A stretch of DNA of 22,713 nucleotides. It comes from a virus. The translations under genes were made by a program, and so were the position numbers. How positions within the stretch are numbered: position 1 is the first letter of the stretch; the number at the start of each line of letters is the position of its first letter. The notes beneath the pieces are model-generated. The model was given only the letters and a program-made list of their open reading frames with translations, ran no database searches and was not told the DNA's origin. Location of the stretch: positions 1-22,713 of the IMG/VR virus record IMGVR_UViG_3300028800_000325; one strand, 5' to 3'. Positions 9,372-22,597 of the stretch are shown in pieces.

Positions 9372-9378
9372 GTTTTTC

Positions 9379-9407
9379 TTGAATTTTGTATGACGGAGCG
9401 GTATACT
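9379..9407 (+). promoter_or_regulatory. Sigma70-like promoter of the secreted moron gene
   Basis: TTGAAT (9379-9384) and TATACT (9402-9407) are separated by exactly 17 bases, matching four of six and five of six consensus positions. The site lies just after the gpZ-like stop and 20 bases before the start codon at 9427. It would allow expression independent of the phage late operon, for example in a lysogen. Confidence 0.7.
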
Positions 9408-9417
9408 CGCCGCGTTC

Positions 9418-9424
9418 GGAGGGG
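9418..9424 (+). promoter_or_regulatory. Ribosome-binding site of the secreted moron gene
   Basis: GGAGGGG lies two bases before ATG 9427 (about six bases from the GGAG core), a strong Shine-Dalgarno site that fixes the start. Confidence 0.75.
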
Positions 9425-9426
9425 TT

Positions 9427-10083
9427 ATGCGGAAATTTGCTGTTACGGTGGCAATTCTGCTTTGCGCGGGAACGGCCACAGCTCAAGGGTTGCCGACAGA
9501 TCCAAGCCTATGGCTGGGCATGACGTTCAGTCAGTTCATGAGCAACACACCACACGATTGCAAACAGCTAAGAGCTTTCGATTTAGACCATGCTGGTCGC
9601 TACTCAGTTCACGATTGCAAAATCAAACACCACGTCAAGTGGATCACTCCGGGCGGAGCGAAGGTCGAGACAGAACGGGTGGTTTTCCGAGGCGGCAGGG
9701 TTGCGGAGATCGACTTCACGGTCGCTCACAAAATGCTCGGCGAGCGCTACCAAAACGAGATGGCCACGGTTAACGATTTGACGGCCGTCTATGGGGTTCC
9801 CGATCCGCCAAAAGAGCTAGAGAGCGGACAAACATTCCGATCCAACACCTTTGGCGGGGCGAATCGACAGGTGACCGTGGGATCGCAGGGAAAGTCGCAA
9901 ACGCTCATTTCGACATGGACCCATCCGGCATTCAGCATCCGATGGACGTCATTTACCTACGAATCGTACAGCAGCATGGTCGAAGAGGATACGAACCCGT
10001 TAGCCGGGATTTTGGGCATGAGTTTCGCGAGTAAGGCTGAGCAGGTGGCTTTTATCGACAAATCGACGGCTTTCAACAACTAG
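9427..10083 (+). CDS. Exported protein of unknown function, probable moron / lysogenic conversion gene
   Basis: The 218-aa product begins with a clear signal peptide (MRKF, hydrophobic core, GTATA then Q20), so it is exported. It has no lipobox and no further membrane segment. The mature part has only two cysteines, 45 and 64, each in the same tetrapeptide HDCK, which could form a disulfide. WLGMTFSQFM near the N-terminus and GILGMSFASK near the C-terminus recall the 'G-M-T/S' helix start of small periplasmic BamE/SmpA-like folds, but I cannot name a family. It has its own promoter and ribosome-binding site, runs opposite to the tail operon, and is visibly more A/T-rich than its neighbours. 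These are the marks of a moron. Its TAG stop overlaps the tape measure stop on the other strand. Candidate roles (superinfection exclusion, host fitness) are inference only. Confidence 0.82.
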   Translation: MRKFAVTVAILLCAGTATAQGLPTDPSLWLGMTFSQFMSNTPHDCKQLRAFDLDHAGRYSVHDCKIKHHVKWITPGGAKVETERVVFRGGRVAEIDFTVAHKMLGERYQNEMATVNDLTAVYGVPDPPKELESGQTFRSNTFGGANRQVTVGSQGKSQTLISTWTHPAFSIRWTSFTYESYSSMVEEDTNPLAGILGMSFASKAEQVAFIDKSTAFNN

Positions 10084-12524
10084 CCGCCGATCCCGCGCAG
10101 CGCCATGCTGACCGGGCCGCCCTGCTGCATGTCCTCAATCACCGTGTGAACGATGAACTGGCGCGCCTGGGCGTCATAGCTGACACTCGGCGGTTTACTC
10201 TGGAGCGGCTGGCTGCTTTGGTTCACCAGATTCATCGTGACGTTCGGAGCGCCGCCTCCGCCACCGCCGCCCTTCGCCAGACCTTCCAGCACATCGCTGG
10301 GCGTCACTGTGCCGCCCTTCGCCGGCGGCGTCCACAACTCCATCCCATGCTCGCCGATCCATGTTGCGCCGTCCGGACTGCCACCAGTCGCCATGGTCGG
10401 GAATTGGGGCAACTGAGACGCCAAACCGCTTAGGTCCATGCCTGGAACATCCAGCCCCAGCGGGTCGTTGGTTCCACCCATAACGGATGGGACACCGGGC
10501 GCGAACAGTTGCCGGAGCATCGGGAGAATGAACTGCTTCTCCAACACCTCTGTCGCGAGGCGGTCCAGGTCGGCGATCATATCCTGCACCAGCGCGCGGA
10601 GCGGATCCTTGCCATGCAAATTACTCAATTGCTCAAGGAACCGACCTGTGATTTGCGCTGTGGCCTGCGCTTCGCTGGCCCGCGACGCCATCTCCGCCTG
10701 TTGTGCCGCCCCCTCGGCGGAGGTGCCACCGCTCGGGATGTTACGCTGCTTCTCGATTTCTGCCGTAATGGCGGCTTCCGACTTCTCCCGCTGGGCGGCC
10801 AGATTCGCCAGCTTTGTTTCCACATCGACGAGCTGCGCCTTGAGCTCGTTTTGTTTGGTTTCGTCATGCTGGGACGCAACAGCCGACTGCAACTGTTGCT
10901 GCTTTGCCACCAGCGCCTGTTTCTCGGCGGCGTAGCCGGATTCCTCGATCTGGAGTTTCTGCGCCAGATAGTCGCGCTCTTTCACCAGTCCTTCGGTGTG
11001 TTTGGCGTCGAGAAATGCCATCTGGATCTCCATGGCGTCCTTCGCCTCAGCCAACTGCCGCGCGTCGTTCGCCTCGCGCAGATGCAACTCCGCGGCCATC
11101 GAGGCGCTGAGTTTGGCGTATTCCTTCGCGGTCTGCTCATCCATCAGACGGTTGACGGAGTCAGCCCAGTTGGCGTCTTTGATCGCGGCGGTGTTGTCTT
11201 TCGACAGCGAATCCGGCATCCCGGGCGACCCGGTAGCCGTGTTGCTCGCCATGCGGTCCTGCGCTGCGCGCATCTCGTCAAGATAATGGGCCTCAAGCGC
11301 CTTCATCTCGTCAAGCTGCTTCTGCGTTCGAACAATCTGCGCATCAAGATCCGGCGTTCCGGACACCTCGGCGCCGGTCGCGGTGAACTGCGCGCCCGCG
11401 GCGTGCTGCCGCTGCATGTCCTCCAACTGCGCCTGCACGACGGAGACTTGCTTCCAGAGCGACGTGGCATGCGCCGCGGCTTCCTGTTCGGTGGCCTTGT
11501 CGTAATCCTGATGCAACTTGAGCATCTTCTGCTGGAATTCCTGCTCAGACACCAGCTTGGCGTCGTGCGCCTGATTGAGGGCCGCGATCTGGCTGTCGAT
11601 CTTTGAGCGTTCCTGTCCGGAATCGTAGGCCAGCGTCGCCGGATCGGAGGACTGCAGGATGGATTTGGGGATGGCCGCCAGGCCGACGTTGATGGGCGTC
11701 TGCGACAGATTGAGCCAGTCGCGCAGGTAGCCGAGCGCGATCTCCATGCCCTGCGACCAGTTGGTGATCGCCGGAGTCAGGTCGCGCGTCAGTTCGATGG
11801 CCAGCCCCATCAGGTTCGATTCCACCTGCGTGGAGAGCTTGTGCAGCTCTTCCATCTGTTTGACCATGCTGTCGCTGAGGACCACGCCGGCGGCTTCGGC
11901 GTCGCCGCGCATCCGCTCCAGCGCGTCGGCGCCCTGGTCGAGGATGGGGATCAGTTCCACTCCGGCGCGCCCGAAGAGTTGCTGCGCGGCCGCGCTCTTC
12001 TGCCAGCCATCGGGCATGGCCGCCATCTTGTCGGCGACCAGCTCCAGCGTCTTGTACATGTCGCCGTTTGTCTTTGTCAGGTCGGCGGAACTGATGTGCA
12101 GCAGCCCAAAGGCGGCGTTGGCCTCTTTGGACCCCATCTGCACCTCGAACATCTCCGTGGACAGCTTTTTGAACCCCTTCTGGAGCGATTCGAAGCTGAC
12201 GCCGGTCTGCTCGCTCACATACTTCAGCACCGACAGATTCTCGGTCGAAATGCCCGTCTGCTTCGACAGATGGCCGATCTCCATGCCCAGATCGACGCTT
12301 TTCTGCACCATCTCTTTCATGCCGTCGATGGCTTCGTGCATCCCGTAGCTGATGCCGGCATACTCGAGGGCCTTCTGCATGCGTTCGCTGGCCACCTGCA
12401 ACTGCTCCGACATTTCATTGCCGGTGGCGGCCGTCTCGCGCATCTTCTCTTCGATCATGCGCAGCGCTTCGGCGGCGCCCGTGCCGTCGCCCTGAATCTG
12501 GATTACGATCCCTTTGCCAGCCAT
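10080..12524 (-). CDS. H: Tail tape measure protein
   Basis: The 814-aa product starts at ATG 12524, overlapping the stop of the chaperone second frame (TGATG). It is the longest gene of the central tail region and has the usual tape measure layout: long heptad-like helical stretches (about 15-110 and 300-630, rich in Ala, Glu, Gln, Lys), a hydrophobic part around 160-300, a Gly-rich segment with seven glycines, and a lambda-gpH-like C-terminus (APNVTMNLVNQSSQPLQ ... GGPVSMALRGIGG). The protein sets tail length and is threaded through the tube. If the common 1.5 angstrom per residue relation holds, the tail would be about 120 nm. Position after the G/GT pair agrees. Its stop shares bases with the convergent plus-strand gene. 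Confidence 0.93.
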   Translation of the reverse strand: MAGKGIVIQIQGDGTGAAEALRMIEEKMRETAATGNEMSEQLQVASERMQKALEYAGISYGMHEAIDGMKEMVQKSVDLGMEIGHLSKQTGISTENLSVLKYVSEQTGVSFESLQKGFKKLSTEMFEVQMGSKEANAAFGLLHISSADLTKTNGDMYKTLELVADKMAAMPDGWQKSAAAQQLFGRAGVELIPILDQGADALERMRGDAEAAGVVLSDSMVKQMEELHKLSTQVESNLMGLAIELTRDLTPAITNWSQGMEIALGYLRDWLNLSQTPINVGLAAIPKSILQSSDPATLAYDSGQERSKIDSQIAALNQAHDAKLVSEQEFQQKMLKLHQDYDKATEQEAAAHATSLWKQVSVVQAQLEDMQRQHAAGAQFTATGAEVSGTPDLDAQIVRTQKQLDEMKALEAHYLDEMRAAQDRMASNTATGSPGMPDSLSKDNTAAIKDANWADSVNRLMDEQTAKEYAKLSASMAAELHLREANDARQLAEAKDAMEIQMAFLDAKHTEGLVKERDYLAQKLQIEESGYAAEKQALVAKQQQLQSAVASQHDETKQNELKAQLVDVETKLANLAAQREKSEAAITAEIEKQRNIPSGGTSAEGAAQQAEMASRASEAQATAQITGRFLEQLSNLHGKDPLRALVQDMIADLDRLATEVLEKQFILPMLRQLFAPGVPSVMGGTNDPLGLDVPGMDLSGLASQLPQFPTMATGGSPDGATWIGEHGMELWTPPAKGGTVTPSDVLEGLAKGGGGGGGAPNVTMNLVNQSSQPLQSKPPSVSYDAQARQFIVHTVIEDMQQGGPVSMALRGIGG

Positions 12525-13242
12525 CACGTCCCTTTCTTCTTCGCGGCCCGCTTCAACTTGCGCCGGATCTCCGCGATCCGCTTCTCGCCCTCGGTCTGCT
12601 TCCGCGCCTCAGACGTTTCCGCCGGTGCCTCGCCCAGCAGTTGCGCCGCGGTCACCGGTTTGCCGCACTGCGCGCTCAACAGGAACGCCAGCCAGCCAGC
12701 TTCCACCCGCCGCCGCGCCCGCTGCGCTTCGTCGTACCCTTCCGCCATGAGCGTGAATTCCCATGGCATCAGCCGCCAGAATTCCTCCGGCTTTAGTCCG
12801 AGCCTTCCGGTTCCGAAGCGAAGTGCTTCCTCCCAGTCGAATGCTTTGGGCTCGCGCTTGCCCCGGCCTGCTCGCCCTTTGGCTCGGCCGGATCGGCGTT
12901 TTTTCGGTGCAGCGGATTGCTGAGCGACGCCAGCAGCGCGTAGAAGATGCCCTCAATCGTGAGCGGCGTTATTAAAGCTTCCGCCTGGGCCTCGGTCAGC
13001 GTCTCACCCGCATCCGCGGCGTCGCGCTGCAGGCCGATGTAGAGAAAGAAGGCCAGCGCCTCCACCGAGCGAATCCGGAGCTCCTGTTTCCTGCCGGGAA
13101 GCGGGATCGTCTCGTAAAGCGCGTTGGTGGGGCGCAGCCCGTAGCGCTGCATGAGCGCAAAGGTGGCTTTGTGGTCGAAGCAGAGGACCCGTGGGCGGTC
13201 GAGGTCGATGGAGATGTGCGCGCGCGTGGCGTCAGGAGTCAT
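12524..13242 (-). CDS. Tail assembly chaperone GT (made by -1 frameshift)
   Basis: The second product of the chaperone pair. Ribosomes reading from ATG 13242 would slip back one base at CCCAAAG (12850-12844), after residue 133 (Lys), and continue in a frame that reads AFDWEEALRFGTGRLGLKP, then EEFWRLMPWEF and a charged C-terminus ending KRAAKKKGT at 12524. This adds 106 residues for a total of 239. The D/W-x-x-A-x-x-x-G, P-x-E-F-W, T/M-P-x-E/W-F pattern just after the slip is typical of the second frame of siphophage tail chaperones. This frame has no good start of its own upstream of MPWEF, which supports synthesis as an extension. The stop overlaps the tape measure start. In lambda a small fraction of gpG becomes gpGT and both coat the tape measure during tail assembly. 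Confidence 0.87.
12793..13242 (-). CDS. G: Tail assembly chaperone G (zero-frame product)
   Basis: The 149-aa product starts at ATG 13242, overlapping the stop of the preceding gene (ATGA), with AGAGG seven bases upstream. Residues 1-105 carry the globular part (HISIDLDRPRVLCFDHKATF, VEALAFFLYIGLQRD, LTIEGIFYALLASL). The last 40 residues are polar and low-complexity. The slippery heptamer sits at codons 132-133, about 17 codons before the TAA stop, so most ribosomes end here and a few shift to make the longer GT form. It lies between the tail tube genes and the tape measure, the standard place for this pair. The family call relies on position, frameshift and second-frame pattern more than on its own sequence. 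Confidence 0.85.
   Translation of the reverse strand: MTPDATRAHISIDLDRPRVLCFDHKATFALMQRYGLRPTNALYETIPLPGRKQELRIRSVEALAFFLYIGLQRDAADAGETLTEAQAEALITPLTIEGIFYALLASLSNPLHRKNADPAEPKGEQAGASASPKHSTGRKHFASEPEGSD
12844..12850 (-). promoter_or_regulatory. Programmed -1 ribosomal frameshift site (CCCAAAG)
   Basis: The heptamer fits X-XXY-YYZ in the zero frame of the G gene: (AG)C CCA AAG. After a -1 slip the tRNAs re-pair with CCC and AAA, and the next codon is GCA in the GT frame. It lies 51 bases before the zero-frame stop. I did not establish a downstream pseudoknot or hairpin. Confidence 0.82.
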
Positions 13243-20581: not shown

Positions 20582-22597
20582 TCAGAAGATTTTCCAGTTA
20601 TCGCGCCAGCTCGCCGGATTATCGGCGGATTTAGCTTTGCTGATGGTGCCCAGCACGGGGAGGTGCGCCCACGGGTCCGCGCCATGGTTTTCTTCGGCTT
20701 TTTCCTCGGGCTGAAACGCGGCTTTCACCCCGTCTGCGGCTACTGTCAATGCCTCGACAATCGGCTGGATGGCGACAGCCGGAGGCAGCTTGCCGAACAG
20801 CCGCTCGTAGAGCCTGTCGAAGTTGGGGCGCAGGATTTCGCGCGCCGCGCTCGCATAGACGGCGCAATCCAGCGGCTCGTTGCGGCGGCCAGCCAGCACT
20901 TCGAAGCGCTTCACCGGGCGGCCGCGATGGCGCGTGGTGACGATGTGCTCCGCGGTGAGGCCCTGCAGGTAAGCGCGGTCCAGATGCTCGGCTTTGAGGA
21001 TATGAATGTAGCCAGCGCCTTTGTGCTCCTGTTTCAGGCCGGAGTAGATGCGCTCTTTGGCCGTGTCGACGCCAACCATGTAGAGCAGCGTCTTGTTCTT
21101 GTCGGGCCGCGTTCCGGCATTCACCAGCGGACGGCCAAACCCGGCCATGCCTTTGACTGAGTAGACGCGCTGGCGCTCGCGGCGCCGGGTGTAGTCGTTG
21201 ACGATCTTGGTTTGGTCGCCGGAATCGACGCAGACGCAGGAGATGCCCAGCATCTTGCCGCTGGGATGCCGCCAGCGGCGGGTGCGCAGATCGTCGAGCT
21301 CGCGCCACGGGCTCTCCGGGTGCTCTTCCGGCAGCGCCGGAGATCCGCGCAACACAAAATGGTCGACGGCCCATCCCTCTTTACCGAGACCCCAGCCGAA
21401 CAGGCTGGCTTCGATACGATCGCGCTGGACGTCGACGCCCATGGTGAGCAGCAACACGCCTTCGGGGATTTCCTGAGCCTGGGGTAACGGCTCCTGCCGC
21501 TTCTCCAGTTCGGTTTCTTCGGCGCCATCGCCGCGCAGTTCCCACGACTCCGCCAGCCGGGTATTCGTGAAAACCTGCAGCTTCTCCGGATCGGCCTGGG
21601 CGCTGAGCCATTCCAACACCAGGCCGCTCCACTCGACCCACGGGGAATAGAGCGCGTTGAGGTGAAAGCCGGCCGTTTTGCCGTCGATGGATTCCTGGCT
21701 GGCCTGCCAGCGGCCCTTGCGCACCATCTCATATTTGCTGCCCTCGTCGACGCGGCAGCCGTTCATGCACTCATAGTGGACGTCGAGCGGCCGGATCTGG
21801 CCGGATTCCATCACCTCTTTGTCGTACTTGAGGCGAGACCACATCAAAACCTGTTCAAGCCCGCAAGTCGGGCATGGGACCAGGTAATAGCGCTGATCCG
21901 ATTCGCCGAAGGAATGCTCGATGCGGGAGGTGCCTTTGATCAGCGGCGTGGAGGTTTCGACGGCGATCCGGTTCCAGAACGTGGAAAGCCGGATGTAGGC
22001 CAGGTCGAGCACGTCGCCTTCCGTGCCGGCGGATTCCGGGAAGCGGTCGACCTCGTCAGCGTAGAGGAATCGGATGGCTTTGGACGCGAGGCCACTGGGG
22101 GAGTTCGCGCCCACCAGCGACAGGAAGCCGCCGGGGAATTCTTTCAGTTCCAGTGTGTTGCCGGAGTCGCGGGATTTGGGATCGGGGTAAAGGTCGCGCA
22201 GCGCCGGGGAGTCTCGGATCATGGGCGCGATGCGCGTTTTGGACATCTCCTGCGCACGGTCCAGCGTGGGTTGGATCATCAGCATGTAGGAGGGCTGCTG
22301 ATGGCTGAAGTAGCCGAGCGCGTTGAGGCCGAGCTGCGTTTTGCCCGTCTGCGAAGCCCACACCAGCACGATCTTGCGATAGTGCGGGTCGGAAATGGTG
22401 TCCATGGGCTCGCGCTCGTAGGGCGCAACCGCCGTGGAGAATTTGCCGGGCTCCGCGCTGCCGGCGGGGATGTAGGCGTATTCGTCGGACCACTCCGACA
22501 GCGACATGGGCGGCTTGGGCTTGAAGATACCCAGGCCCGCGGCGATCTCGCGGTCGAGCGCTTCGCGGGATTCTTCGGCGCAGATGTAGGGCTTCAT
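20582..22597 (-). CDS. A: Terminase large subunit (GpA type)
   Basis: The 671-aa product is a phage packaging motor and nuclease of the lambda gpA family. The N-terminal adenine-binding and Walker A region reads KIVLVWASQTGKTQLG (about 76-90), with Walker B around 176-183 (FLYADEVDRF, Asp181 and Glu182). The cysteine pairs CPTC and CMNGC (about 245-290) probably form a zinc ribbon, as seen in this family. The C-terminal nuclease part has Asp in LLTMGVDVQRDRIE and CVDSGDQTKIV, and a later basic segment. It cuts the concatemer and pumps DNA into the prohead. Start ATG 22597 overlaps the stop of the small-subunit candidate (ATGA). Length agrees with the family (about 640 aa). Confidence 0.96.
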   Translation of the reverse strand: MKPYICAEESREALDREIAAGLGIFKPKPPMSLSEWSDEYAYIPAGSAEPGKFSTAVAPYEREPMDTISDPHYRKIVLVWASQTGKTQLGLNALGYFSHQQPSYMLMIQPTLDRAQEMSKTRIAPMIRDSPALRDLYPDPKSRDSGNTLELKEFPGGFLSLVGANSPSGLASKAIRFLYADEVDRFPESAGTEGDVLDLAYIRLSTFWNRIAVETSTPLIKGTSRIEHSFGESDQRYYLVPCPTCGLEQVLMWSRLKYDKEVMESGQIRPLDVHYECMNGCRVDEGSKYEMVRKGRWQASQESIDGKTAGFHLNALYSPWVEWSGLVLEWLSAQADPEKLQVFTNTRLAESWELRGDGAEETELEKRQEPLPQAQEIPEGVLLLTMGVDVQRDRIEASLFGWGLGKEGWAVDHFVLRGSPALPEEHPESPWRELDDLRTRRWRHPSGKMLGISCVCVDSGDQTKIVNDYTRRRERQRVYSVKGMAGFGRPLVNAGTRPDKNKTLLYMVGVDTAKERIYSGLKQEHKGAGYIHILKAEHLDRAYLQGLTAEHIVTTRHRGRPVKRFEVLAGRRNEPLDCAVYASAAREILRPNFDRLYERLFGKLPPAVAIQPIVEALTVAADGVKAAFQPEEKAEENHGADPWAHLPVLGTISKAKSADNPASWRDNWKIF

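Follow-up and report, generated by a model that had tools for sequence, protein, structure and literature searches.

A candidate superinfection-exclusion factor in an exchangeable cargo pocket beside a reversed tail gene of lambda-like siphophages

The window analyzed here, 22,713 bases long, is an entire IMG/VR virus record and carries the head and tail operon of a lambda/HK97-like phage on its minus strand: the genes for terminase, portal, capsid, major tail protein, tape-measure protein, tail L, NlpC/P60, J and fibre. Opposed to this operon in orientation is P0001, which encodes a small, probably exported protein and fills the space between two convergent genes, one for the tape-measure protein and one for the minor tail protein P0002 (a match to phrog_1924 at E 1.2e-23). 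P0001 starts 55 nt after P0002 on the same strand, and its stop codon shares the four bases CTAG (10080-10083) with the tape-measure stop codon (Table 1). A first-pass annotation had singled out P0001 as a promoter-bearing, A/T-rich moron of opposite orientation within the tail operon. Its orientation is indeed opposite, but it is not the sole reversed gene: P0002 also lies on the plus strand. That annotation missed the recurrence of the cargo pocket among related phages and the reversal of the neighboring tail gene, and this exchangeable exclusion-gene pocket beside a reversed tail gene is a more interesting part of the finding than P0001 alone.

Table 1. Features of the P0001 locus and its surroundings (window coordinates)
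Feature	Position	Strand	Remarks
Promoter, sigma70-type (predicted)	9379-9407	+	TTGAAT-N17-TATACT; leader homologous to the leader in relative L069
Ribosome-binding site	9418-9426	+	GGAGGGGTT; segment CGGAGGGGTTATG identical in L069
Cargo gene P0001	9427-10083	+	Open reading frame with ATG start; 218-residue protein, predicted to be exported; low GC; no recognized family
Sec signal peptide of P0001 (predicted)	9427-9483	+	MRKFAVTVAILLCAGTATA; cleavage after A19, assigned by eye
Cargo pocket	9372-10079		Between the convergent tape-measure and minor tail genes; contents vary among relatives
Minor tail gene P0002	8550-9371	+	phrog_1924; left wall of the pocket
Tail tape-measure gene	10080-12527	-	Right wall of the pocket, convergent
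Terminase gene	20582-22597	-	Head and tail operon

Relatives were collected through alignment of the capsid (L017, L020, L021, L022, L025, L034, L045) and of the minor tail protein (L068-L103), and occupied pockets were compared in L025 and in the 20 records, including the window, that show both walls. In L034/L096 the pocket is empty, and the stop codon of the minor tail gene directly overlaps that of the tape-measure gene; occupied pockets hold 0.37-3.3 kb of mutually unrelated genes pointing in the same direction as the minor tail gene. The description of P0001 as a moron inserted in the tail region is thereby borne out. The GC content of the occupied pocket is below that of both flanks in 20 of 20 cases (Wilcoxon p = 2e-6). 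P0001 itself, at 53.7% GC and 63.5% GC at third codon positions, is the lowest in the window on both counts, the 21 other genes ranging over 56.5-69% and 64-87%, respectively, so that the claim of a more A/T-rich composition also holds. The anatomy is shared as well. The first cargo gene begins 42-56 bases past the minor tail stop codon in 12 of 20 pockets. In 12 of 20, too, the cargo and tape-measure stop codons have exactly four bases in common, an overlap that the minor tail stop codon likewise forms in the empty pocket; its recurrence with unrelated cargo may be a trace of how exchange takes place or of selection for compact packing. Hydrophobic segments of signal-peptide or transmembrane grade are found in 28 of 38 pocket open reading frames versus 3 of 19 core genes, by a threshold crude enough for one soluble toxin (BrnT) to pass.

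The contents of the pocket point toward a role, as far as family annotation (PF14373, restriction and toxin-antitoxin names) identifies anti-phage cargo. The superinfection-immunity domain Imm_superinfect (PF14373) is found over the Pfam cut-off in 11 of 21 occupied pockets: those of L017/L069, L020/L070 (two genes), L025, L045/L077, L075, L078, L080, L083, L086, L089 and L095. When 31 whole records were searched for this domain, 13 matches came up in 12 of them, and all 13 lie inside the pocket, although pockets constitute just 2.9% of the 823 kb searched; independent events must be fewer than these counts because some records are near-duplicates (L083/L084; L080/L081). One of the pocket Imm genes has tblastn matches to imm genes annotated as T4-type. 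In three cases a signal peptide and exported domain are fused to a C-terminal Imm domain (L017/L069:7881-8549, L020/L070:8069-8713 and L086:7761-8279), and the exported domain of L069 recurs without Imm in L082:7771-8211 (BLASTP E 2e-4 in a single comparison). The pocket of L073 holds the BrnT toxin and its BrnA antitoxin, those of L025 and L045 hold FitA-like ribbon-helix-helix proteins, and that of L089 (7852-11008) holds consecutive genes for a C5 methylase, a Vsr nuclease, an MvaI/BcnI-type endonuclease and an Imm protein. The remaining pockets contain mostly exported or membrane proteins of no known family, among which at least one family recurs: membrane-anchored proteins with a conserved cysteine pair and 63-82% identity in L079:8310-8726, L087:7778-8194 and L100:7773-8216. 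The pocket families that can be identified are thus superinfection immunity, toxin-antitoxin or lone antitoxin-like, and restriction-modification, together with zinc-ribbon-like matches below cut-off. With its conserved flanks and variable, defense-enriched contents, the pocket fits the description of an anti-phage cargo hotspot.

The occupant of such a pocket would bring with it, or keep, a sigma70-type promoter of its own. The site ahead of P0001 lies exactly where the first-pass annotation placed it, with its -35 element TTGAAT at 9379-9384, a 17-nt spacer and its -10 element TATACT at 9402-9407. By itself it is at chance level: the pattern occurs at 3 sites in 20 kb versus 2.9 ± 1.6 in shuffled sequence. 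A promoter claim resting on the window alone was rejected on that ground, and the site becomes convincing only through comparison with relatives. In the 75 bases 5' of cargo genes the mean best sigma70 promoter score is 8.05, versus 6.60 (standard deviation 0.86) at random genomic sites, a level that not one of 300 shuffle means attains. L069 gives the strongest reason to regard the promoter as real: the leaders of the window and of L069 align from the -35 element to the third codon with a score of 55, whereas 2000 shuffles score 32 at most. The coding parts that follow do not align and specify unrelated proteins, the L069 cargo being one of the fusions of a signal peptide to Imm. A promoter in front of P0001 is therefore well supported on comparative grounds. 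The strong ribosome-binding site that had been annotated is also in place, with GGAGG at 9418-9422, 4 nt ahead of the ATG. The occurrence of one promoter leader before unrelated proteins suggests how such cassettes get swapped. The motif TAnACT...TCGC on the 3' side of the -10 element recurs in pockets, but similar strings are found elsewhere and it is not claimed as an operator. At the far end of the gene there is only a weak terminator-like site at 10179, 96 nt past the stop codon, in a window whose total count of such sites is little above chance.

The P0001 reading frame stays open by chance in only 10 of 3000 (~0.3%) first-order Markov sequences of matched composition. The N-terminus of the protein, MRKFAVTVAILLCAGTATA followed by Q20, is basic over its first few residues and then hydrophobic, and has ATA, an A-x-A cleavage site, immediately before the glutamine. 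It thus fits a Sec signal peptide, a signal peptide having already been proposed in the first-pass annotation; inspection by eye finds no lipobox. The mature protein of 199 residues has exactly two cysteines, C45 and C64, each within the HDCK motif already pointed out in the first-pass annotation, and a hydrophobicity scan of the whole protein finds no second segment of signal-peptide or transmembrane grade in it. The statement that P0001 belongs to no recognizable family is likewise upheld: no homologue was found in Pfam, PHROGs, NCBIfam, PADLOC or PDB sequences, by tblastn against phage and plasmid sequences, in two viral pattern scans (which reach close relatives only) and a genome scan, among 57 other whole virus records, or by phmmer over all fetched loci. 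Nor does P0001 show any link to the exported portion of the signal peptide-Imm proteins. Foldseek searches with the predicted structures gave no match at E < 0.06 in PDB or viral libraries.

These features of the pocket and its contents lead to a proposal for the function of P0001. The evidence tips toward an exported superinfection-exclusion factor in an exchangeable cargo site: relatives' genes in the same pocket would mostly serve to keep rival phages out, and P0001 probably does so as well. The earlier suggestion of a superinfection-exclusion candidate gains strong positional support, which raises it well beyond guesswork, from the frequency of PF14373 in occupied pockets and from a leader held in common with Imm cargo. 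The pocket is well supported by the comparison of genomes; the function proposed for P0001 would follow from its place there. P0001 would be the current occupant in a group of lambda-like siphophages that is evidently temperate, tyrosine integrases being present in 19 of its 31 records, and would lie antisense to the late tail transcript. Its promoter, taken together with the known behavior of morons, suggests expression from the prophage; the protein would then be secreted to the periplasm and block the entry of rival phages there. The likely target would be a component of the incoming tail or tape measure, or else a host envelope protein used for adsorption or DNA injection: Imm proteins dominate the pocket, and a secreted occupant would most likely act in the periplasm, on an incoming tail or on the host protein that the tail uses. 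Several observations weigh against this proposal. No PF14373 match is found in the window, and P0001 has no transmembrane segment apart from its signal peptide, unlike the injection blockers Imm, gp15 and SieA. With about half of the pocket genes lacking a known function, position alone cannot give a role, and the searches made turned up no homologue of P0001 that could bear on selection or function. The window record itself contains no integrase.

Other roles for the gene have to be set against this proposal. P0001 might be an exported protein that helps the host without excluding phages, for example a periplasmic inhibitor or binder of the BLIP or BamE kind acting in lysogenic conversion, with the pocket as a site for morons in general. 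That about half of the pocket genes lack a known function would suit such a role, as would a feature of the two single-sequence AlphaFold2 models of P0001, both of which are poor (predicted local distance difference test scores of 37 and 43): the secondary structure in these low-confidence models resembles two repeats of a helix and four strands. Similarity between the two halves of the sequence is not significant (p 0.27). In one model (score 42.8) the N-terminal half weakly matches BLIP, a putative beta-lactamase inhibitor protein and BamE, at Z 3.4-4.1. The matches to BLIP are absent in the second model, and in one Foldseek search all PDB E-values exceed 0.1; a fold of the BLIP/BamE type, guessed earlier from sequence and secondary structure, is accordingly kept as a lead and not relied on. 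Since all of the identifiable pocket families, zinc-ribbon-like matches below cut-off aside, fall into the immunity, toxin-antitoxin and restriction-modification classes enumerated above, lysogenic conversion without phage exclusion is judged unlikely.

A place in the lytic cycle is less likely still. A late exported protein, whether an aid to lysis, a factor in virion maturation or a virion component, could be co-transcribed with the reversed minor tail gene, to which P0001 lies parallel and just 55 nt downstream. Residues 116-149 of P0001 (window 9772-9873) also give a partial match to Spike_JR2, the second jelly-roll domain of the spike protein P1 of phage PM2, although at E 0.0024 and 18.2 bits it is below the Pfam cut-off of 26 and covers 34 of 76 positions. 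However, unrelated genes replace P0001 in the closest relatives, whose minor tail protein is 80% identical, and in another relative the pocket is empty, which argues that virions do not require P0001; its own conserved promoter leader, low GC content and signal peptide likewise do not fit a late gene. Least probable is that P0001 is a toxin, part of one, or a selfish passenger that confers no benefit on the phage and sits in a neutral insertion site. The presence of BrnT/BrnA in one relative's pocket and of FitA-like proteins in two others speaks for it, but no antitoxin partner adjoins P0001, which moreover has an export signal and a promoter in common with Imm cargo, and a neutral site would not gather 13 of 13 Imm genes.

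Comparison with known systems helps to define what the proposed exclusion factor would and would not resemble. HK97 gp15 is located in the tail region, and P0001 is comparable to it as another moron among the tail genes of a lambda-like siphophage. As cited in PMC10883804, gp15 is a predicted inner-membrane superinfection-exclusion protein that blocks injection by long-tailed phages, a block that is escaped by swapping tail tube or tape-measure genes. P0001, in contrast, is predicted to be soluble and exported, belongs to no recognized family and is antisense in a convergent pocket; the inner-membrane character of gp15 and SieA is lacking in P0001, whose sole hydrophobic segment of that kind is the N-terminal signal. 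T4 Imm acts on DNA injection (PMC11436027), and the family that it shares with PF14373 proteins is the commonest cargo of the pocket, with the Imm cargo of L069 using a leader homologous to that of P0001; however, P0001 has neither the PF14373 domain nor the transmembrane pair. By the features tested, then, P0001 falls outside the Imm, gp15 and SieA families. SNIPE, a membrane-bound nuclease (PMC13190303), and Tab (PMC10884400) both act through tape-measure proteins. Tab, of phage JBD26, is a late-operon moron that acts on tail assembly in the cytoplasm, unlike the role proposed for P0001, and the family searches made reveal no sequence relation of P0001 to either. At the level of the locus, the hotspots of P2/P4-like phages (PMC9122126) similarly place rapidly exchanged anti-phage cargo at a fixed site between conserved phage genes; the present pocket differs in phage group and in site, and its cargo consists mostly of small envelope proteins rather than cytoplasmic systems. 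No description of the pocket was found in the literature searched, from which subscription journals are largely absent, so that an earlier description is possible. The practical yield is an address at which to look for exclusion genes of uncultured phages: the interval that separates the tape-measure gene from a reversed phrog_1924 gene. With about half of the occupants belonging to known superinfection immunity, the others, including P0001 and the L079/L087/L100 family, become ranked candidate exclusion factors.

The reversed left wall of the pocket is itself a property of the group. In ~30 related loci the minor tail gene runs against the rest of the tail genes; it shares their direction only in L092, L093/L094, L101 and L102 (L103, unassigned, is left out). 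L092 retains it immediately ahead of M, and the reversed state is therefore most simply attributed to an inversion. A more ambitious and distinctly tentative proposal combines this history with the properties of P0001: the whole group, as temperate siphophages of a soil type, would have reversed one tail gene and thereby created a convergent, promoter-equipped pocket, antisense to the tail operon and reserved for anti-phage genes that act at the envelope. P0001 would be the founding member of a new family of exclusion proteins, soluble and periplasmic, that dispense with a membrane anchor and disarm the tails of rivals. As a separate peculiarity of the tail region, some relatives have a major-tail-protein-like gene between M and L (L021:15072-15419, L045:19608-20063 and L075:6150-6572), which in L021 and L045 is a second copy.

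As to the host, alignment of the terminase against genome contigs gives no match, and Acidobacteriota as the host phylum is only a guess. The Imm_superinfect domain, the same Pfam domain as that of the pocket cargo, is reported in 7 of 24 genomes of soil Acidobacteria, where a prophage origin is suspected (PMC5900883). In the window, the fibre-like protein encoded at 3-1961 on the minus strand has a hydrophobic, signal-peptide-like start, MRRRLPLLILLFPWFIFPAAFGQ, which is odd for a virion protein.
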